A stretch of DNA of 21,830 bases. Origin: a virus. Positions 1 to 18,093 of this stretch are shown here, piece by piece. Position 1 is the first letter of the stretch. Each line of letters starts with the position of its first letter. The position numbers and the translations under genes were made by a program. Below the pieces are notes generated by a model. The model did not search any database, was not told where the DNA came from, and was given only the letters and a program-made list of their open reading frames with translations. The stretch is from positions 1 through 21,830 of IMG/VR virus record IMGVR_UViG_3300042898_001610. One strand, 5' to 3'.

Positions 1-68
1 CAGACAACACACCCGGCATGCCGGTTGCGTTGGCGCGTCGAATGATCGAACTAGCCGAAAAGCGTTAG
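1..68 (+). CDS. C-terminal end of a probable prohead protease (partial)
   Basis: The frame beginning at base 3 is open from the window edge to a TAG at 66-68 and encodes a tail of 21 residues ending in MIELAEKR. A short amphipathic, Arg/Glu/Leu-rich end directly upstream of a major capsid gene is what I would expect for an HK97-type prohead maturation protease, which trims the capsid N-terminal delta domain. Only the position and this short tail support the call. A second frame is open through this stretch to 171 but its product looks non-protein-like. Confidence 0.45.
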   Translation, partial: DNTPGMPVALARRMIELAEKR

Positions 69-5308: not shown

Positions 5309-5902
5309 ATGGCATCGAAGAGACCCAAACCGTCATTCACCGCAAAGGCACAGGCCGATTTCACAGGCCGTGCCGGTTGGGATTTGGACGCGTCGTTGTA
5401 CAACTACGCTGAAACAAAAGCGTTGATGAAAAAGACGGACCCGGAACTACGCAAAGCAATGGATAAAACAATCAAAGATTTGTTGAATCCGATTGCGAAA
5501 CGTGCAAAATCGTTTGTGCCTGATCAACCATTGTCAGGTTGGAACTACGGGGATGCAGGTGAAAGGTATTTGCCTAGCCGTTTGCCGTTTTGGAATCCTT
5601 CACTGGCCAAACGTGGCATTGCAGTGAGGCAGGGTGGCAGACGTTCCAAAGGTGCAGTGACACAAGCGGCATGGAAAATTTCAAACAGTTCCGGTGCCGG
5701 TGCAGCATTTGAAACCGCAGGGCGCGGCCCATCCAAACATGCGTTTGTGAAAGCAATACAAAATACGCATGGCAAACCATCACGCCTGATTTGGCGTGCA
5801 TGGGATGAAGCGGGTGGTGAAAAAAACGTTGTTGGTGAAGTGCGGGCAACGGTCAATGAGTATGAATCACTACTGCAAACGCAGTTGAACGCAATGAGAT
5901 AG
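5309..5902 (+). CDS. Unknown basic protein between chaperone and tape measure
   Basis: The 197-aa protein is rich in Lys/Arg/Ala, with a helical stretch ETKALMKKTDPELRKAMDKT near residues 32-52 and IKDLLNPIAKRAKSFVPDQP after it. The C-terminal part contains SKHAFVKAIQNTHGKPSRLI. Such a helix followed by a basic, Trp/Gly-rich body recalls HK97 gp10-type neck/tail-completion proteins, but these normally lie upstream of the tube gene. A clear RBS (AGGAAAA) precedes ATG 5309. It is surely a structural-operon gene; whether it is a virion part or a second tail assembly factor I cannot tell. Confidence 0.75.
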   Translation: MASKRPKPSFTAKAQADFTGRAGWDLDASLYNYAETKALMKKTDPELRKAMDKTIKDLLNPIAKRAKSFVPDQPLSGWNYGDAGERYLPSRLPFWNPSLAKRGIAVRQGGRRSKGAVTQAAWKISNSSGAGAAFETAGRGPSKHAFVKAIQNTHGKPSRLIWRAWDEAGGEKNVVGEVRATVNEYESLLQTQLNAMR

Positions 5903-5911
5903 GGGCCGGTC

Positions 5912-8113
5912 ATGGCTGTTGTGCTGAACGTCATATCGACTTTCAACGATAAAGGATTGAAAAGCGCAACAAATGAACTGGACAAGTTCAGCAAGGCCAC
6001 CACTGAAAAGTTGAGCAGCACCACCAAAGCAATGGGTGCAGTTGGTGCCGGTATTCTTGCCGGTGCCGGTGCCGTTGGTGTTGGGTTGTATCAAATCGGG
6101 TCATCGTTTGATGAGGCGTTTGATGCGATCCGTACCGGAACCGGTGCAACCGGGCCTGTGTTGGATCAGTTGAAAAACGATATGAAAGCGGTGGCCAGTG
6201 CGGTCCCTGCATCGTTTGGCGATGCCGGTGCCGCTATTACCGGATTCAATCAAAAACTTGGGTTGACCGGTAAGCCGTTGCAACTGCTATCTGAACAGGC
6301 GTTGGAACTGTCCCGGATTACCGGTACAGAACTGGCGGGCAATGTAGAATCCATCACCAATGTGATGCAAAACTTTGGTGTGTCTGCCGGGGATCAGTCC
6401 GGCAAACTTGATTTGTTGTTCAGGGCCTCGCAAGCATCAGGTGTTTCCGTTTCTGCCCTATCAGAGCAAATGTCCGGTGCCGGTGTCGTATTGCGTTCCG
6501 TTGGTTTGGATTTCGACCAATCCGCTGCGTTCCTCGCTACGTTGGGCAAGGCTGGAATTGATGCATCAGATGTGATGCCTGCCCTGTCCAAATCATTAGC
6601 GGTTGCAGCGAAGAACGGCAAGGACGCCACCACAGTTTTCAATGACACCTTCAATGCAATCAAAAACGCACCCAACGATGTTGATGCTGCGGGTGTTGCG
6701 TTGGATGTGTTTGGTGCAAAGGCTGGCCCCAAGTTTGCTGCAATGATCCGTGAAGGCAAACTGTCCTATCAGGACATGTTGGCTGCAATGCAGGGTGGCA
6801 GTGAAACCATTTTGGGTGCAGGCGCAGACACACAAGATTTTGGTGAGAAACTGACCCTGTTGAAAAACAGGGTTTTTGTCGCGTTGGAACCAATCGCCAC
6901 GCAGGTGTTCAACGCCATTGGTGATGCAATGGACCGCATTGGCCCGAAGGTTGAACAACTCACAAATTGGATGACGGAACACAAAACGGTGATGATGGTT
7001 GTTGCCGGTGTATTGGGTGGTGTGATGCTCATTGCATTGGCCGCATACACCGCTGGCATGATTGCTGCCGCCGCTGCAACGATTGCAGCAGGCGCACCGT
7101 TCATTGCTATTGGTGCAGCGATTGCCGCAATGGTTGCTGCCGCAATTTATCTTTGGGTGAATTGGGATCAAATCTGGAATTGGGTGATGGACCACAAAGC
7201 CTATGCAGCAATTATTGCAATTCTCGGCAGCGTCATCATTGTGCCGATTGTTGCTCTAGTTGCAATCATCAAATGGTTGCAGGCGAATTGGGAAACCGTC
7301 TGGTCAAAGATTCAAACAGTTACCGGTTTCGCTTGGGGCATCATCAAACCAATTTGGGATGCAATCTACGGGTACATTGTCAATTATCTGATTCCCTACT
7401 TCAATTTCCTTTGGGATGTTTTCCAAAATGTTTGGACATGGATTAGCGAGAAGATCACCGAAGTTTGGAACAATGTGATCAAACCCATTTGGAATGCCAT
7501 CTACGGGTTCATTGTCAATTATCTGATTCCATATTGGACATTGTTGTGGAACGTTGCACGATCTGTGTGGGATCAAATCTCATCAAAGATCAGCACGGCA
7601 TGGGGCGTCATTTCTGCGGTGTTTGAAGGAATCAAAAACGGTATTGCAACTGTTTGGGGATTTTTCCAAACCGCAAAAGATATCATTGGCAACGTGTTCA
7701 ACAACATTGCCAATGCAATCAGCGGACCGTTCCGCACCGCATTCAATTTCATTTCTGATGCATGGAACAACACGGTGGGCAAATTGTCGTGGTCTGTTCC
7801 CGGTTGGATTCCAGTTATTGGCGGCAACAAAATTGAAGCGCCGAAACTTCCACGTTTCGCCAACGGCGGTATTTTCAACACCGCAATGGGTGGCGGTTCA
7901 GGCCTCGCAGTGCTGCATGATAATGAAATGATTTTGAATCCGAAACAACAAAAGGCGTTGTTCAGCGGCAACGGTTTGGGTGGTGGCGGTTCTGTCATCA
8001 ATATCAATGTTGAGGTTGGGCCGACTGCCGACAAAGCCGCTATTGGGCAAACCATTGTTGAGGCAATCAGTGCGTATGAACGGCGTGCCGGTGACGGATG
8101 GCGGGCAGCATGA
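5912..8113 (+). CDS. Tape measure protein, TP901 type
   Basis: The 733-aa protein sets tail length and is ejected with the DNA. Residues 1-50 are a charged helical start. Residues about 60-310 match the TP901 core, including LSRITGTELAGNVESITNVM and SQASGVSVSALSEQM. Two hydrophobic blocks, about 360-420 and 428-455, are long enough for membrane insertion. A tryptophan-rich part, 478-567, holds two 45-residue tandem repeats. The C-terminal LPRFANGGIFNTAMGGGSG and LAVLHDNEMILNP are hallmarks of actinophage and Gram-positive tape measures. At about 1.5 angstrom per residue the tail would be near 110 nm. The stop overlaps the next start (ATGA). Confidence 0.93.
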   Translation: MAVVLNVISTFNDKGLKSATNELDKFSKATTEKLSSTTKAMGAVGAGILAGAGAVGVGLYQIGSSFDEAFDAIRTGTGATGPVLDQLKNDMKAVASAVPASFGDAGAAITGFNQKLGLTGKPLQLLSEQALELSRITGTELAGNVESITNVMQNFGVSAGDQSGKLDLLFRASQASGVSVSALSEQMSGAGVVLRSVGLDFDQSAAFLATLGKAGIDASDVMPALSKSLAVAAKNGKDATTVFNDTFNAIKNAPNDVDAAGVALDVFGAKAGPKFAAMIREGKLSYQDMLAAMQGGSETILGAGADTQDFGEKLTLLKNRVFVALEPIATQVFNAIGDAMDRIGPKVEQLTNWMTEHKTVMMVVAGVLGGVMLIALAAYTAGMIAAAAATIAAGAPFIAIGAAIAAMVAAAIYLWVNWDQIWNWVMDHKAYAAIIAILGSVIIVPIVALVAIIKWLQANWETVWSKIQTVTGFAWGIIKPIWDAIYGYIVNYLIPYFNFLWDVFQNVWTWISEKITEVWNNVIKPIWNAIYGFIVNYLIPYWTLLWNVARSVWDQISSKISTAWGVISAVFEGIKNGIATVWGFFQTAKDIIGNVFNNIANAISGPFRTAFNFISDAWNNTVGKLSWSVPGWIPVIGGNKIEAPKLPRFANGGIFNTAMGGGSGLAVLHDNEMILNPKQQKALFSGNGLGGGGSVININVEVGPTADKAAIGQTIVEAISAYERRAGDGWRAA
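7343..7612 (+). repeat. 135-bp in-frame tandem repeat in the tape measure gene
   Basis: ATC AAA CC(A/C) ATT TGG begins at 7343 and again at 7478, exactly 135 bases (45 codons) later. The first 22 residues of each unit (IKPIWDAIYGYIVNYLIPY and IKPIWNAIYGFIVNYLIPY) differ at only two positions; the rest of the unit has diverged but keeps the Trp spacing. The period is a whole number of codons, so unit number would change tail length without breaking the frame. Confidence 0.85.
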
Positions 8114-10085: not shown

Positions 10086-10760
10086 ATGGGTTCAGGATTT
10101 CGCACATTTCAAACAGCGGAGGTTCTCACTGCCTCCAATGTCCAAAATTATTTGATGGAACAATCCGTAATGGTTTTCAATTCTGTTGGTGAGAGAAACG
10201 CGGCCATCGCTTCACCTGAAGAGGGCATGGTTTGTTTTCTCAATACTGGCGACCGAACTGAAGGCCTCTACACCTACACGGCTGGGGCTTGGCGTGAGGC
10301 TCGTATCCCGGTTCCGGGTTTCTCAGCAACAAAGACAGGCGCGCAATCCGTAGCCGCTAACGCTTTCACTGTCGTCACATGGAACAGCGAAACCTACGAT
10401 CATGGCAGCGTTTTCGCTTCTAACACTTTCACTGTCCCGACTGGTTACGCCGGCAAATGGCTGCTGATTGCAAACATTGCGTTTGGCACTTTGAACACTG
10501 GCGCAAACAAGGCAGCGTTTATTACGAGACAAGCATCGGGTGGTGGCGCTCCAACTTCAGCCGACGCAATCGCCGCTCAGGGTTACAGGGCGGACAGCGA
10601 TTTTACGGTTCCACGCGCCAACCTTTCCGTCATTTACAACGCAACAGTCGGCGATCTTTTCAAAGTTTGCGTCTTGCACGATTCACTCGCCACCATCAAC
10701 GTCCTAGCAAGCGCCGCAGGCGTTCCAAACTTTTTCCAAGCAACATGGTTGGGAACCTGA
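10086..10760 (+). CDS. Tail tip/fibre protein with C1q-like jelly-roll end
   Basis: The 224-aa protein begins GFRTFQTAEVLTASNVQNYL followed by MEQSVMVFNSVGERNAAI and SPEEGMVCFL, a conserved N-terminal module in actinophage minor tail proteins that probably attaches to the hub. Residues about 75-224 form a strand-rich domain (FSATKTGAQSVAANAFTVV, then GKWLLIANIAFGT and a final FFQATWLGT) resembling C1q/TNF-like jelly rolls that trimerise at fibre tips. It is a good candidate for host binding. TGAGGAAAATT before ATG 10086 is a strong RBS. A 51-base spacer follows before the endolysin. Confidence 0.75.
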   Translation: MGSGFRTFQTAEVLTASNVQNYLMEQSVMVFNSVGERNAAIASPEEGMVCFLNTGDRTEGLYTYTAGAWREARIPVPGFSATKTGAQSVAANAFTVVTWNSETYDHGSVFASNTFTVPTGYAGKWLLIANIAFGTLNTGANKAAFITRQASGGGAPTSADAIAAQGYRADSDFTVPRANLSVIYNATVGDLFKVCVLHDSLATINVLASAAGVPNFFQATWLGT

Positions 10761-12198: not shown

Positions 12199-13017
12199 AT
12201 GGCTGAACAAAAACCACGGACACATTTGGTGATCCCTGACACACAATCAAAACCCGGCACACCAAATGATGCGTTGGGTTGGATCGGTTCCTACATTGTT
12301 GAGAAGCAACCTGATTGCATTGTGCATTTGGGTGATCACGCAGATTTCCCGTCACTGTCATCGTATGACGTGGGCAAAAAAGATTTTGAAGGCCGCAGAT
12401 ATCGTGATGATGTTGATGCTGCCAACCTTGCGTTTGATGTGTTGTGTGAACCGATGGAAACACACAACCGACGCAAAGCGAAACAAAACAAAAAGCAATA
12501 CAAACCTGAACTGATCATGTTGCATGGCAACCATGAACATCGTGTGCAGCGGGCCATTGATAATGATGCTGCACATTTGGATGGTGTCATCAGTTTGGAT
12601 GATCTGAACTATGCATCACATGGTTGGCAGGTTGTTCCGTTTCTGCAACCCATCTGCATTGATGGTGTTTATTACGCACACTATTGGGCCAACCCTATGA
12701 CGGGCAGACCGTTCGGGGGCAATGCCACCACACGGTTGAAACAGGTGGGCCACAGTTTCACAATGGGCCATCAACAGGTGTTGGATTATGCAATCAGGTT
12801 TGTTGCAGGGCGTTCACAACATGCGTTGATTGCAGGTGCCGCGTATCTGCACACTGAAAAGTATTTGGGTCCGCAGGGAAATGATCACTGGCGCGGCATC
12901 ATTGTGAAACATCAGGTTGAACAGGGGTCATATGATCCCATGTTTGTAAGTCTTGATTATTTGTGCAGACGTTTTGAAGGTGTCCCATTGGCCAAATTCA
13001 TGGCCCATGTTTACTGA
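12199..13017 (+). CDS. Calcineurin-like metallophosphoesterase
   Basis: The 272-aa product has the metallophosphoesterase motifs in order: IPDTQ (Asp14, Gln16), LGDHADF (Asp46, Asp49), LHGNHEHR (Asn111, His112), AHYW (His161) and MGHQQ (His191). The usual first motif is DxH; here Gln replaces the metal-binding His, a variant I recall from other phage members. Such enzymes hydrolyse phosphomono- or diesters using two metal ions, and phage versions may act on DNA ends or nucleotides. The substrate is unknown. It is odd to find it inside the lysis/late block. AACGGGCAACGGT upstream provides a weak RBS for ATG 12199. Confidence 0.85.
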   Translation: MAEQKPRTHLVIPDTQSKPGTPNDALGWIGSYIVEKQPDCIVHLGDHADFPSLSSYDVGKKDFEGRRYRDDVDAANLAFDVLCEPMETHNRRKAKQNKKQYKPELIMLHGNHEHRVQRAIDNDAAHLDGVISLDDLNYASHGWQVVPFLQPICIDGVYYAHYWANPMTGRPFGGNATTRLKQVGHSFTMGHQQVLDYAIRFVAGRSQHALIAGAAYLHTEKYLGPQGNDHWRGIIVKHQVEQGSYDPMFVSLDYLCRRFEGVPLAKFMAHVY

Positions 13018-13804: not shown

Positions 13805-14145
13805 TGGGTGTTCCGGCCAACTATCCGCTGACCATTCGCACAGGTGACACCGAAACCGTCACCGTTTCATTGCAAGATTCTGCCGGGGCTGCGGTGAACA
13901 TTACGGGCCGCACCTATCAGGCACAGATTCGTGACACTGCCGCATCAACTGCGGTGTTGGCAACGTTCACCTGTTCAGTCACTAATGGCACGGCAGGCAC
14001 GTTTGCTTGCACGTTGGGAACGGCAACCACTGCTGCCCTGTCTGAACAAACCGGTGTTTGGGATTGTCAGGAAACAACTGCCGGTGGTGTGGTGTCCACG
14101 TTGCTGGCCGGTCAGGTTTGGATTGTTCAGGATGTGACACGGTGA
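13804..14145 (+). CDS. BppU-like/Ig-like tail accessory protein
   Basis: The 113-aa product opens ANYPLTIRTGDTETVTVSLQ, then AAVNITGRTYQAQIRDTAAS and ends with VWDCQETTAGGVVSTLLAGQ followed by VWIVQDVTR. This beta-sandwich pattern (low-complexity RGDT, a V-D/N-L/I-T-G turn, QIR, and a closing strand) is common in baseplate-associated proteins such as BppU N-terminal domains. It likely mounts the fibre encoded next. ATG 13804 shares one base with the holin stop, and its own stop overlaps the following GTG. Confidence 0.65.
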   Translation: MGVPANYPLTIRTGDTETVTVSLQDSAGAAVNITGRTYQAQIRDTAASTAVLATFTCSVTNGTAGTFACTLGTATTAALSEQTGVWDCQETTAGGVVSTLLAGQVWIVQDVTR

Positions 14146-14729
14146 GCGTGTCGCTGACAGTGCAACAGGACACGGTGCGTTTGCGTGCTAGTGGCAGCGC
14201 GGTGGTTGTGCAGCAGTCGGCGCATGATGTTGTTGCTGCGGGTGTTGCTGGCCCTGCCGGTTCGCTTGGATATTTCGGTGCGTTTTCATCGACACAAACA
14301 CAAACTGTTGGTGCCGGTACTGCCGTCGCGATGACGTTGGACACGGTTGATGATGCGGTTGGTGTGTCGGTTACTGATGGCAGTCGGGTGGTGTTGTCCA
14401 ATCCGGGTGTTTGGAATGTGCAGTTTTCTGCACAGTTGCTGAAAACATCCGGTGGCACTGGCACTGTGTCAATTTGGTTGGCACAGAATGGCAGCCCGGT
14501 GGCGAGGTCATGCACTGATGTGAAGGTGCAGGGCAATGGGACTGAGGAAGTGGCGTCATGGAATTGGGTGGTGCGCACTACCGGGGCCAATGAGTATGTG
14601 CAGGTGATGTGGTCGGACAACACCGGTGATGTCACCTTGTATGCGGTTGGCACCCGTACCGGTCCGGTGCGGCCTGCGGTGCCGTCTGTGATCCTCACAG
14701 TGACCCCCGTATTGGTGAACCCTTACTGA
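14142..14729 (+). CDS. Second jelly-roll tail fibre/receptor-contact protein
   Basis: The 195-aa protein has a short strand-rich N-terminus, a collagen-like AGVAGPAGSLGYFGAF turn near residues 38-53, then a C1q/TNF-like domain. That domain includes TAVAMTLDTVDDAVGVSV, then GVWNVQFSAQLLKTSGGTGT, VSIWLAQNGSPVARS and EYVQVMWSDNTGDVTLYA. Such domains trimerise at the tips of fibres. It starts at GTG 14142 in a GTGA overlap with the preceding gene, which probably couples the two. It is the last gene of the late operon. Confidence 0.7.
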   Translation: MSVSLTVQQDTVRLRASGSAVVVQQSAHDVVAAGVAGPAGSLGYFGAFSSTQTQTVGAGTAVAMTLDTVDDAVGVSVTDGSRVVLSNPGVWNVQFSAQLLKTSGGTGTVSIWLAQNGSPVARSCTDVKVQGNGTEEVASWNWVVRTTGANEYVQVMWSDNTGDVTLYAVGTRTGPVRPAVPSVILTVTPVLVNPY

Positions 14730-14837
14730 CCCCCCCTGATTGTTCTCCGGTTCATGCACACGGCATTCCCCTGCGCCGTGATTGGATGCCAACAGGCTTG
14801 ATTGCCTACTGAGCAAACCCCTATTTGAACCGGCTGC

Positions 14838-14884
14838 AAAGCCCCCCTGCCCCACCGTTTCGGTGCCGGGTGGGGGGGCTTTTT
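14838..14884 (+). terminator. Rho-independent terminator closing the late operon
   Basis: AAAGCCCCCC (14838-14847) pairs with GGGGGGCTTT (14873-14882), extended by CACC/GGTG inside a small bulge, and the 3' arm ends in CTTTTT. A long GC stem plus T-run makes this a strong terminator; the A-run on the 5' side would allow weak function on the other strand. It lies 108 bases after the last late stop. The region 14730-14837 has no gene, only a short CACGGC/GCCGTG hairpin (14759-14780). Confidence 0.88.
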
Positions 14885-14905
14885 GCGTTCCCGGAATCCC
14901 CTGCA

Positions 14906-14957
14906 ATTTGGGGGGTTTGTGGGGGTTGTTGCATGTGTGGCAGATGTGTACTAGAAC
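14906..14957 (+). promoter_or_regulatory. Promoter P1 with conserved upstream G/T-rich element
   Basis: A TTGCAT -35 box (14929-14934) and TAGAAC -10 box (14952-14957) are spaced 17 bases apart, as for actinobacterial housekeeping sigma factors. The 37 bases 14906-14942 are identical to 15601-15637, including ATTTGGGGGGTTTGTGGGGG upstream of the -35. The repeated element could be an operator or activator site. Transcription would start near 14964 and cross a GGGGG/CCCCC hairpin (14972-14986) before the RBS. Confidence 0.65.
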
Positions 14958-14971
14958 TTGTGCATGGGAAC

Positions 14972-15010
14972 GGGGGACCAGCCCCCACCGGAAAGCAAGG
15001 AAAGCAACCA
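14972..15010 (+). promoter_or_regulatory. Leader hairpin and RBS of the first early operon
   Basis: GGGGG (14972-14976) can pair with CCCCC (14982-14986) around a five-base loop. It is followed by AAGGAAAGCAACCA just before ATG 15011. The last 15 leader bases and first 15 coding bases match those at 15686-15715. The hairpin at the 5' end of the mRNA may protect it from decay. Confidence 0.5.
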
Positions 15011-15310
15011 ATGAACACAGCAACCGAAACCAACCTCACCACCGTGGCAGAATCAGCAAAGCAAACTGCCGCCATGATCCGCACCGGCCTGCGCAACCGC
15101 ACCGGCCTTCGCTACTCAGTCACACTTGGACGTGGCACCGCTGCCCACCACATCTACATTTCAGCAGGCAAGGGCGTTGACGAAACTGCTGCCCGCTCTG
15201 CACTGAGTGAAATCCTCAGTTGGCCAACACTCGGCCATCCACTGTGGATTGTCATGGGACACAAGGAACGCCTTGCCATCCTCACCGCCATCACAGGCGG
15301 TGAGGCATGA
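15011..15310 (+). CDS. Unknown early protein (99 aa)
   Basis: The product begins MNTATETNLTTVAESAKQTA and continues with a helical AAMIRTGLRNRTGLRYSVTL segment, a strand HHIYISAGKG and a helix ETAARSALSEIL. A helix-strand-strand-helix layout of this kind occurs in small domains of phage early proteins, but I recognise no family. It is the first gene after promoter P1 and has a strong RBS. Its stop overlaps the next start by 4 bases (ATGA), so both are made from one short transcript. Confidence 0.8.
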   Translation: MNTATETNLTTVAESAKQTAAMIRTGLRNRTGLRYSVTLGRGTAAHHIYISAGKGVDETAARSALSEILSWPTLGHPLWIVMGHKERLAILTAITGGEA

Positions 15311-15546
15311 ACACCAAACTGGCATCAGAACTTGCACCCGGTGACATCATTACGATCCGCACCGAAGTGCCTGCCTACGATTTCGGAATGCGCAACCCGC
15401 AACCGGCAACGGAATGGGTGCAAATCAAACATCGCATTGAACACACCGAACACAACGATGGTGTGGTGAGGCTCTCACTGCACACATGGCACCGCGATTT
15501 CATCAAGTCATATCCTGCCAACCAACAGTTCAACGTTGTCAGTTGA
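15307..15546 (+). CDS. Unknown early protein (79 aa)
   Basis: The small protein contains LASELAPGDIITIRTEVPAY near its start, then a His-rich middle (KHRIEHTEHNDG) and LSLHTWHRDFIKSYP. The LxPGDxI phrase is a common beta-turn in small beta-barrel proteins and suggests a compact beta fold; there are no catalytic motifs I can name. It is coupled to the preceding gene by an ATGA overlap and is the last gene before a hairpin and the second promoter. Confidence 0.78.
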   Translation: MNTKLASELAPGDIITIRTEVPAYDFGMRNPQPATEWVQIKHRIEHTEHNDGVVRLSLHTWHRDFIKSYPANQQFNVVS

Positions 15547-15559
15547 ACCAACCGACACC

Positions 15560-15582
15560 GCCGGGGGAAACGTTCCCCCGGC
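15560..15582 (+). terminator. Perfect 10-bp hairpin after the first early operon
   Basis: GCCGGGGGAA (15560-15569) and TTCCCCCGGC (15573-15582) form a perfect stem with loop ACG. It lies 14 bases after the stop at 15546. There is no T-run, so it may be a weak or factor-aided terminator or an mRNA 3' end stabiliser. A second GC hairpin, CCCCC(15595-15599)/GGGGG, follows directly and ends in TTT, and may take part. Confidence 0.55.
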
Positions 15583-15600
15583 ACCCTGCCACAGCCCCCG

Positions 15601-15652
15601 ATTTGGGGGGTTTGTGGGGGTTGTTGCATGTGTGGCACAGGACTGGTAGACA
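15601..15652 (+). promoter_or_regulatory. Promoter P2, duplicate of P1
   Basis: The -35 TTGCAT (15624-15629) and -10 TAGACA (15647-15652) are again 17 bases apart. The 37 bases 15601-15637 are identical to P1, after which the spacer diverges. The conservation covers the upstream element and -35 but not the downstream spacer, which points to a protein contact surface there. It should drive the long operon from 15701 to WhiB. Confidence 0.65.
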
Positions 15653-15660
15653 ATGGACAT

Positions 15661-15700
15661 GGCCCCGCAGGGGTGGCCCACCAACAAAGGAAAGCAACCA
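15661..15700 (+). promoter_or_regulatory. Leader hairpin and RBS of the second early operon
   Basis: CCCC (15663-15666) pairs with GGGG (15670-15673) around GCA. AAAGGAAAGCAACCA follows up to ATG 15701. The arrangement copies that at 14972-15010 although the hairpin sequence itself is different, so the structure rather than its sequence seems to be kept. Confidence 0.5.
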
Positions 15701-15886
15701 ATGAACACAGCAACCAACACACCCGGATACAACTGCCGCATCACAATCTTTTTTTCAACCAACAAAAACGGGCGACGCCTCGCCCGCTACGTTGCACAGG
15801 GTCGCCCGTTCCGCTCATTCCCTTTGCCGGTTGACACCGCTGAAATCCTCATCGCCACCGGCGGAGCCGACAGGGGGCAGGCATGA
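15701..15886 (+). CDS. Unknown early protein (61 aa)
   Basis: The protein starts MNTAT like the gene behind P1, then reads CRITIFFSTNKNGRRLARYV and QGRPFRSFPLPVDTAEILIA. It is basic, with a short strand and an Arg-rich loop, which could contact nucleic acid, but no family is recognised. The shared first five codons come from the duplicated leader; the remaining sequence is unrelated. The stop overlaps the next ATG (ATGA). Confidence 0.75.
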   Translation: MNTATNTPGYNCRITIFFSTNKNGRRLARYVAQGRPFRSFPLPVDTAEILIATGGADRGQA

Positions 15887-16149
15887 ACACTGAACCCAAG
15901 TTTTTGGCAGTCACCTACACCACCGATGGTGAACCAATCGCATATTGGTTGGGGGGTGAATCTGCGTGTGTGCGGTTTGTGGATCGTGAGCGCGCGCAGG
16001 ATGAACGGGTGACAACCCACACCATCACGCAGGTTGCACCATCAATGACATGGGAACAGGCACGCGATCAAACATTCATACCGGACCCCGATGCCACACG
16101 CAGTGTGGTGTGGTCCGGGACATGGACTGAACTAGAAAGGCACGCATGA
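15883..16149 (+). CDS. Unknown early protein (88 aa)
   Basis: The 88-aa protein contains KFLAVTYTTDGEPIAYWLGG, then a charged CVRFVDRERAQDER and a C-terminal SMTWEQARDQTFIPDPDATR. It looks like a small soluble alpha/beta protein. No motif allows a function. Both ends are ATGA overlaps with neighbours, so it is embedded in the coupled early operon. Confidence 0.75.
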   Translation: MNTEPKFLAVTYTTDGEPIAYWLGGESACVRFVDRERAQDERVTTHTITQVAPSMTWEQARDQTFIPDPDATRSVVWSGTWTELERHA

Positions 16150-16319
16150 ACACTGAATCAATCACTACGGGCGAGGCTGCCCACATGTTGGGGGTGTCAT
16201 CGGAAACGGTGCGCCGCTGGATCAAATCCGGGTATCTGCCCGCAACGTTCCTGCCATCAGGTCAGGCACGCATCACACAACAATCAATCACTGAACTACA
16301 GAACAGGGGAAAACAATGA
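16146..16319 (+). CDS. Excisionase-like helix-turn-helix protein (57 aa)
   Basis: The ATG at 16146 opens a 57-codon frame to TGA 16317-16319. Residues 7-46 read TTGEAAHMLGVSSETVRRWI and then KSGYLPATFLPSGQARI, the classic MerR/excisionase-type HTH (helix-turn-helix_17) with a wing. Such proteins bind DNA as excisionases or small regulators. It is coupled by ATGA overlaps at both ends. With no integrase in view, a regulator of the early promoters P1/P2 is as likely as an excisionase. Confidence 0.87.
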   Translation: MNTESITTGEAAHMLGVSSETVRRWIKSGYLPATFLPSGQARITQQSITELQNRGKQ

Positions 16320-17518: not shown

Positions 17519-17728
17519 ATGGACACATTCAATTTGGACACAATGAACCGCACATGGGATTTGTTACTGGCAGCGGCCAACAATGATGAACCGGACATGG
17601 AACTTTATTTGGATGCTGCCGATGCGTTGCACACATGTTTGGAACGCATCGATCATTTGGAACAAATCCAATCCAATTTGCGGGCCGAACTGCAACGGCA
17701 CCGTTCTATGGAAGCGGCAGGATATTGA
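17519..17728 (+). CDS. Unknown small acidic helical protein (69 aa)
   Basis: The protein is mainly helical and acidic: NLDTMNRTWDLLLAAANNDE, then LYLDAADALHTCLERIDHLE and IQSNLRAELQRHRS. The last half has a coiled-coil look. GAAAGGCTGATC gives a good RBS for ATG 17519. Its stop overlaps the TTG start of WhiB, so the two are probably coupled. Family not recognised. Confidence 0.75.
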   Translation: MDTFNLDTMNRTWDLLLAAANNDEPDMELYLDAADALHTCLERIDHLEQIQSNLRAELQRHRSMEAAGY

Positions 17729-18093
17729 ACACGCAACTGGAACCACCTGAACGGTGGGCAGACAAAGCCGCATGCAAAGGCATGCTGCAAACTTTCTACG
17801 CAAACCCCAACAACAAAAAAATGATGGACAACGCAGTGGCCGTTTGTTTCACCTGTCCGGTTGTGATGCCATGCCAACAATGGGCATTGGCGAACCATGA
17901 GGAACATGGCGTGTGGGGTGGCATGACACCTGAACAGCGGTTGCGGATGATTGGGGCGAAACCGAAGCGTGCTGCCACTGTTTCATGTGGCACATCATCC
18001 GGGTATGTGAAGGGTTGCCGGTGCGATCAATGCCGACAGGCTCACACCGCAGCGGTGCGGGAATACAGGCAACGCCAGCGTGCCAACCGGTGA
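17725..18093 (+). CDS. WhiB-family regulator with second cysteine-rich domain
   Basis: Residues 10-75 form a WhiB domain: RWADKAACKG with Cys17, CFTCPVVMPC with Cys41, Cys44 and Cys50, and the HGVWGGMTPEQR turn. The four cysteines should hold an iron-sulfur cluster, and WhiB proteins bind the housekeeping sigma factor of Actinobacteria. Residues 86-122 add CGTSSGYVKGCRCDQCRQAH and a basic end; Cys88, Cys98, Cys100 and Cys103 could bind zinc or DNA. The best start is TTG 17725 overlapping the preceding stop (TTGA), with GGCAGGA upstream; an ATG at 17635 would overlap far more. Confidence 0.92.
   Translation: MNTQLEPPERWADKAACKGMLQTFYANPNNKKMMDNAVAVCFTCPVVMPCQQWALANHEEHGVWGGMTPEQRLRMIGAKPKRAATVSCGTSSGYVKGCRCDQCRQAHTAAVREYRQRQRANR

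Follow-up and report, generated by a model that had tools for sequence, protein, structure and literature searches.

Paralogous putative promoter and leader units with an ATG at the predicted transcript start precede two non-structural operons of a viral genome fragment

Two near-identical promoter/leader units were found in front of two operons of non-structural genes in a viral DNA fragment of 21.8 kb (21,830 nucleotides), which as a whole is referred to as the window. The unit is real, is conserved in related phages and recombines. New here, as judged from sequence comparison, appears to be a constant RTG codon (ATG or GTG) at the predicted transcript start (+1), behind which homologous genes would be found in leaderless and leadered versions. 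We favor, at a probability of about two in three, that the units are paralogous early promoters whose transcripts start on the RTG and have interchangeable 5' ends, with recombination taking place at the +1 ATG.

Results

Gene organization of the window

The window contains structural genes, the two promoter/leader cassettes and non-structural genes, in that order and all on the plus strand. The major capsid protein gene (185-1402) opens the structural genes and is followed by tail genes, an amidase lysin, a phosphoesterase and a holin; the last structural gene is located at 14142-14729. This operon is closed by an intrinsic terminator at 14840-14884 (stem-loop of -27.2 kcal/mol, z -2.91, followed by TTTTT), and relatives carry a terminator at the same position. 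Operon 1 comprises a gene for 99 amino acids with no family match (15011-15310) and a gene for 79 amino acids (15307-15546) with a 91% identical counterpart in L015 (related viral contigs are designated by L and a number). Operon 2 begins with a gene for 61 amino acids (15701-15886), whose L015 homologue is predicted to be leaderless. In L011 this gene and the homologue of window gene 15883-16149 apparently form one fused reading frame (5764-6252, 162 amino acids), and elsewhere the homologues of the two halves are two separate genes. The non-structural genes further encode a small MerR/HTH_17-type DNA-binding protein (16146-16319; Pfam HTH_17, E 1.5e-11) and a WhiB-family protein (17635-18093; Pfam Whib, E 4.2e-18), both candidate regulators, as well as a RusA-like resolvase, a PD-(D/E)XK exonuclease and a DNA methylase. 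The operons are termed early on the basis of their gene content and position.

A 10-bp hairpin, GCCGGGGGAAACGTTCCCCCGGC, is located between operons 1 and 2 (15560-15582; -21.4 kcal/mol, z -4.57). It is kept in L003 (about 2795-2816) and L015 (about 12668-12691), has no T run, and is a candidate terminator or RNA processing site.

The window had no near or distant DNA match among 50,697 phage records and is without a close isolated relative. Relatives of the structural proteins were not found among 84,980 cellular genomes. The top relatives of the exonuclease belong to phages of Streptomyces, Gordonia, Corynebacterium, and Mycobacterium, and since these phages infect actinobacteria an actinobacterial host is likely.

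Two copies of a promoter/leader unit

The 37-mer ATTTGGGGGGTTTGTGGGGGTTGTTGCATGTGTGGCA is present at 14906-14942 and 15601-15637, as the initial annotation had stated; both copies are exact, none would be expected from 100 dinucleotide shuffles, and a search of the window record gave no third. The -35 box TTGCAT is found at 14929 and 15624, and the -10 boxes TAGAAC (14952-14957) and TAGACA (15647-15652) follow after the 17 bases claimed for both sites. We refer to the putative core promoters as P1 (14929-14957) and P2 (15624-15652). They are recognized from sequence only; neither their -35 nor their -10 boxes come close to TTGACA/TATAAT, and a strict sigma-70 consensus scan did not list the sites. 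The upstream element of P1 (14898-14928) consists of a CCCC..GGGG palindrome and the G/T-rich GTTTGTGGGGGTTG, that of P2 (15595-15623) of a CCCCCGATTTGGGGG palindrome and GTTTGTGGGGGTTG, and the two elements share the 37-base identity. The P1 element is kept in L003, L005, L011, and L015, and partly in L004 and L018.

The start points proposed earlier, 14964 and 15659, each turned out to be the A of an ATG. The ATG of P1 (14964-14966) lies six bases after the -10 box and may open a leaderless ORF of 16 codons, MGTGDQPPPESKESNQ (14964-15014), which ends in a TGA that shares bases with the start codon of the following gene (ATGA). The ATG of P2 (15659-15661) is in frame with gene 15701 and would add MAPQGWPTNKGKQP to its product. 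Both leaders contain the GC hairpin that had been noted in them. In P1 it has the form GGGGG-ACCAG-CCCCC (leader A, 14972-14986) and is also found behind P2 of L011; in P2 it is located at 15661-15678 (leader B), and an identical leader is found behind P1 of L011. The common start sequence claimed for the two leaders extends over 29 bases, with the ribosome-site/start sequence AAGGAAAGCAACCAATGAACACAGCAACC identical at 14997-15025 and 15687-15715. The Shine-Dalgarno/start context AAGGAAAGCAACCAATG within it (14997-15013, second window copy at 15687-15703) occurs promoter-free in L003 and L015.

A search of 14700-16200 against Rfam gave nothing above the gathering score. Direct pairing between the promoter box (14919-14928) and the leader (14979-14988) was considered and rejected, as the box is absent from the transcript.

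Conservation in related phages

Relatives were gathered by pattern and protein searches of viral contigs. The promoter was found conserved, with 14 distinct copies in 10 related phages when the window is included and L007/L008/L009 are taken as one. Each contig carries one or two copies, in every case where late genes give way to non-structural (early) ones. Clade 1 consists of the window, L003, L005, L011, L015, and L004, and has GTTTGTGGGGGTTG or close variants directly before TTGC. Clade 2 consists of L006, L007/L008/L009, and L012, and has GGATCCGGGGGATCCG or a one-base variant at the box position. All copies have TTGC at -35 and nearly all have TTGCNNNTGTGG. The promoter of L036 represents a third form, which has diverged further and matches less well. 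L018 (reverse strand, about 1390-1530) combines the flanks and backbone of clade 2 with the G-rich box of clade 1, which indicates that the upstream box has been exchanged independently of the leader and the HTH gene.

In L003 and L005, which lack a second promoter copy, operon 2 retains the ribosome-site/start sequence; that of L003 sits behind a 10-bp hairpin. As the start sequence is kept where the promoter is absent, it forms a module that can be separated from the promoter unit. In L037-L063, which are related more distantly through the phosphoesterase, no promoter copy could be recognized, and among 13 viral contigs matching a loose G-box pattern, L017 and L019-L024 were rejected as relatives because their DNA is unrelated.

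An RTG codon at the predicted transcript start

An RTG is located 6-7 bases past the -10 hexamer, at the expected transcription start, in all 14 distinct copies, although these share ancestry and therefore count as fewer than 14 independent observations of the invariant ATG. The codon is ATG in clade 1 and L036 and GTG in clade 2 and L018; in clade 2 the GTG lies within a TG-rich stretch. Among the nine clade-1 copies the ATG is constant, and the six discriminator bases occur in six variants. A start at the RTG would fit the situation in Mycobacterium tuberculosis, where the TANNNT -10 box precedes the start by 7-12 bp (Cortes et al., 2013; PMC3898074).

The pattern TTG[C/A]-16..18-TA-box-6..7-RTG, whose -10 alternatives were taken from boxes already seen in the copies, had 15 plus-strand matches in the 125,691 bases of 12 records, all of them at these promoters. 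There was one match on the minus strand and two on the reversed sequence. When the RTG requirement was dropped, six extra plus-strand matches appeared away from the promoters.

A fixed frame for the ORF opened by the +1 RTG was tested and not supported. The RTG was found in frame with the gene in six of the ten copies tabulated, in an ATGA overlap in three and in another frame in one, and such mixed frames argue against a strong requirement for this ORF.

Predicted leaderless and leadered versions of homologous genes

At the L004 promoter and at the two promoters of L015, the first gene itself is predicted to start with the +1 ATG, with no Shine-Dalgarno site, and these three mRNAs are predicted to be leaderless. 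Protein homology of the L004 first gene extends to the N-terminus; it is 60% identical to the leadered homologue in L003 and 71% to that in L006, and the L005 homologue, whose identity falls within this 60-71% range, is leadered as well. The first gene of L015 operon 1 matches the leadered window gene 15701 (blastp, 35% over 55 amino acids, E 2e-7), and the first gene of L015 operon 2 matches the leadered L008 gene (45% over 76, E 1e-22). In leadered copies the leader measures 41-47 bases and carries both a GC hairpin and a Shine-Dalgarno site. The predicted folding energy of the first 47 nucleotides is -2.9 to -4.3 kcal/mol for leaderless and -10.8 to -15 kcal/mol for leadered copies. The same promoter unit is followed by different first genes among the phages, and these first genes have been reshuffled.

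Exchange of leaders and the leader hairpins

The cassette had initially been described as mobile or recombining, and it is recombination that the comparison with L011 bears out, as the leaders of P1 and P2 have changed places. Leader A follows P1 and leader B follows P2 in the window, and in L011 the order is reversed. Window P1 and L011 P1 are 100% identical in the -10/discriminator region and 64% in the leader, while window P2 and L011 P1 are 100% identical in the leader and 58% in the -10/discriminator region. This pattern places the exchange breakpoint at the +1 ATG. Leader C is common to L003 and L005, whose discriminators are different. The two L011 promoters have the same -35 and spacer, which differ from those of other phages, a sign of homogenization within the genome.

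The description as mobile was not upheld. No more than two copies were found per contig, always at the same junction, neither a transposase nor terminal repeats were present, and the G-box pattern had seven matches in 84,980 cellular genomes, all in unrelated sequences.

All four leader types (A, B, C, and D of clade 2) have a 5'-proximal hairpin with a five-base loop. Compared to dinucleotide shuffles, the folding of the window hairpins has z -0.13 (14972-14986) and z +0.76 (15661-15678). Leaders A-C fold no better than shuffles (z -0.44 to +0.76) and only D does better (z -1.2 to -1.6); position tests gave p 0.06 (A), 0.195 (B), 0.087 (C), and 0.012 (D). The hairpins are present, but A-C fold like shuffles and three copies in relatives are hairpin-free, so that the earlier argument that structure had been kept while sequence changed is weak for the window leaders.

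Discussion

A model for the two promoters and its alternatives

In the model that we favor, two paralogous promoters, probably dependent on the housekeeping sigma factor, would drive the non-structural (early) operons. Host RNA polymerase would use TTGCAT together with TAGAAC or TAGACA, the conserved G/T-rich upstream box may help or control the polymerase, and transcripts would begin at AUG (GUG in the second clade). The gene could then start at the +1 RTG with an unstructured, AC-rich 5' end, as suggested for L004 and L015, or be placed behind a leader of 41-47 bases that has a Shine-Dalgarno site and, near its 5' end, a GC hairpin, as would be the case for the window, L003, L005, L011, and the second clade. 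Leaders and first genes would be shuffled when the near-identical promoters recombine, the breakpoint lying at the +1 ATG. The window copies are most likely translated mainly from the Shine-Dalgarno ATG at 15011 and 15701, and their hairpin may protect the 5' end or mute the +1 AUG.

A plain promoter duplication, where only the upstream box and the -35 box matter, is the alternative that we take most seriously, although we would put it somewhat below even odds. The +1 RTG would then have no translational role and be a relic or a start preference of RNA polymerase, and the leaders would be ordinary 5' UTRs. Hairpins A-C folding like shuffles, the mixed frames among the 10 tabulated copies and the fact that purine starts are common (PMC3898074) are all consistent with this; however, it is the whole ATG that is invariant in the nine clade-1 copies while the preceding six bases vary, and in three copies it is the gene start. 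Conversely, the +1 RTG might be translated in leadered copies too, to give a 16-residue peptide coupled through ATGA from P1 and an N-terminally extended protein from P2. For leaderless initiation in mycobacteria a 5'-terminal RTG is both necessary and sufficient, and small ORFs that overlap the next gene through RTGA are enriched there (Shell et al., 2015; PMC4633059); the ATGA overlap is exact in window P1, L011 P2, and L008. We nevertheless find such translation unlikely: the GC hairpin begins within a few bases of the AUG, the frames are mixed, the peptide differs between leader types, and the rule is a mycobacterial one whereas the host of the phage may not be a mycobacterium. A bolder proposal, which we also hold to be improbable, is that of a promoter family always starting on AUG or GUG, in which the 5' hairpin would be a switchable module moving a gene between leaderless and Shine-Dalgarno translation, and in which leadered copies would use the +1 codon to make coupled small ORFs or extended proteins.

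Two further alternatives concern the unit as such. The G/T-rich box and palindrome may be an operator for the phage HTH or WhiB protein, by which both promoters would be switched together. The genes for both proteins are found in both main clades, in contigs reaching far enough downstream, and the -35 and spacer shared by P1 and P2 of L011 are phage-specific, as expected if they track a regulator or have been gene-converted. However, clade 2 keeps HTH and WhiB and yet has GGATCCGGGGGATCC replacing the G box, and L018, with its clade-2 backbone, has the clade-1 box, so that we regard the operator as a tentative and rather doubtful suggestion. Spread of the unit within the genome as a mobile repeat, either a MITE or an integron-like cassette, might explain that first genes differ between phages behind the same promoter unit, but with at most two copies per record at a single locus, no terminal inverted repeats, no transposase and no related copies in the 84,980 cellular genomes it is very improbable.

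In the window the box is preceded by the palindrome CCCC(C)..(G)GGGG, at 14898-14914 and 15595-15609. In L011 P1 two changes preserve its pairing (CCCCTG/CAGGGG), and the palindrome may therefore be an RNA hairpin or an operator.

Comparison with known systems

The SAS/ESAS units of cluster K mycobacteriophages (Pope et al., 2011, PMC3203893; Adephagia, PMC11373665) resemble the cassettes in several respects. They comprise a repeated ribosome-site/start sequence before several non-structural genes, with or without a promoter unit, in phages of the same broad host group. ESAS has a SigA-like promoter with 17-18 base spacing in the repeated unit, to which the repeated and conserved TTGCAT-17-TAGAAC/TAGACA corresponds by sequence. 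The SAS GGGATAGGAGCCC was absent from the cassettes when up to two mismatches were allowed; the window has two matches with two mismatches, on the minus strand at 10297 and 20406, a total near chance. The imperfect 17-bp inverted repeat of ESAS was likewise absent, the longest repeats being 10 nt with arms 50 nt apart (14886-15015) and 7 nt (15585-15705). In contrast to SAS/ESAS, the constant part of the window cassettes is the upstream G/T-rich box, and the leaders have exchangeable hairpins. We did not find a +1 RTG with leaderless alternatives described in the passages considered of PMC3203893 and PMC11373665, the latter of which does mention one Adephagia promoter predicted to give a leaderless transcript. 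The cassettes appear to work like SAS/ESAS but are not a member of that group, as the defining sequences are absent.

The mycobacterial leaderless and RTGA transcripts (PMC4633059; PMC3898074) would share with the present units the ATG or GTG at the 5' end, which is predicted for the phage transcripts, and the ATGA-overlapping small ORF. Unlike the mycobacterial cases, the phage units have one promoter type before homologous phage genes that are leadered in some phages and predicted to be leaderless in others, and are known from sequence alone.

The major capsid protein of the Streptomyces phage phiC31 is distantly related to that of the window (about 30%). This phage has several near-identical early promoters in one actinophage genome, a layout resembling the one described here.

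If the favored model is correct, the phages would provide a natural matched set of homologous genes behind one promoter with and without a leader, i.e., a leader swap run by nature, and the question of why actinobacterial genes are leaderless or leadered would become directly testable. The junction between promoter and leader (the +1 ATG) would be a recombination boundary for plugging in new first genes, comparable to the SAS/ESAS sequences of mycobacteriophages.

In L053 (8157-8235) and L055 (about 7150-7190), which represent other phages of freshwater type, different sequences give a comparable layout: the promoter is of TTGACA type, a small GGGGAAACCCC hairpin lies close to the 5' end, and the start codon is preceded by AAGGGAG.
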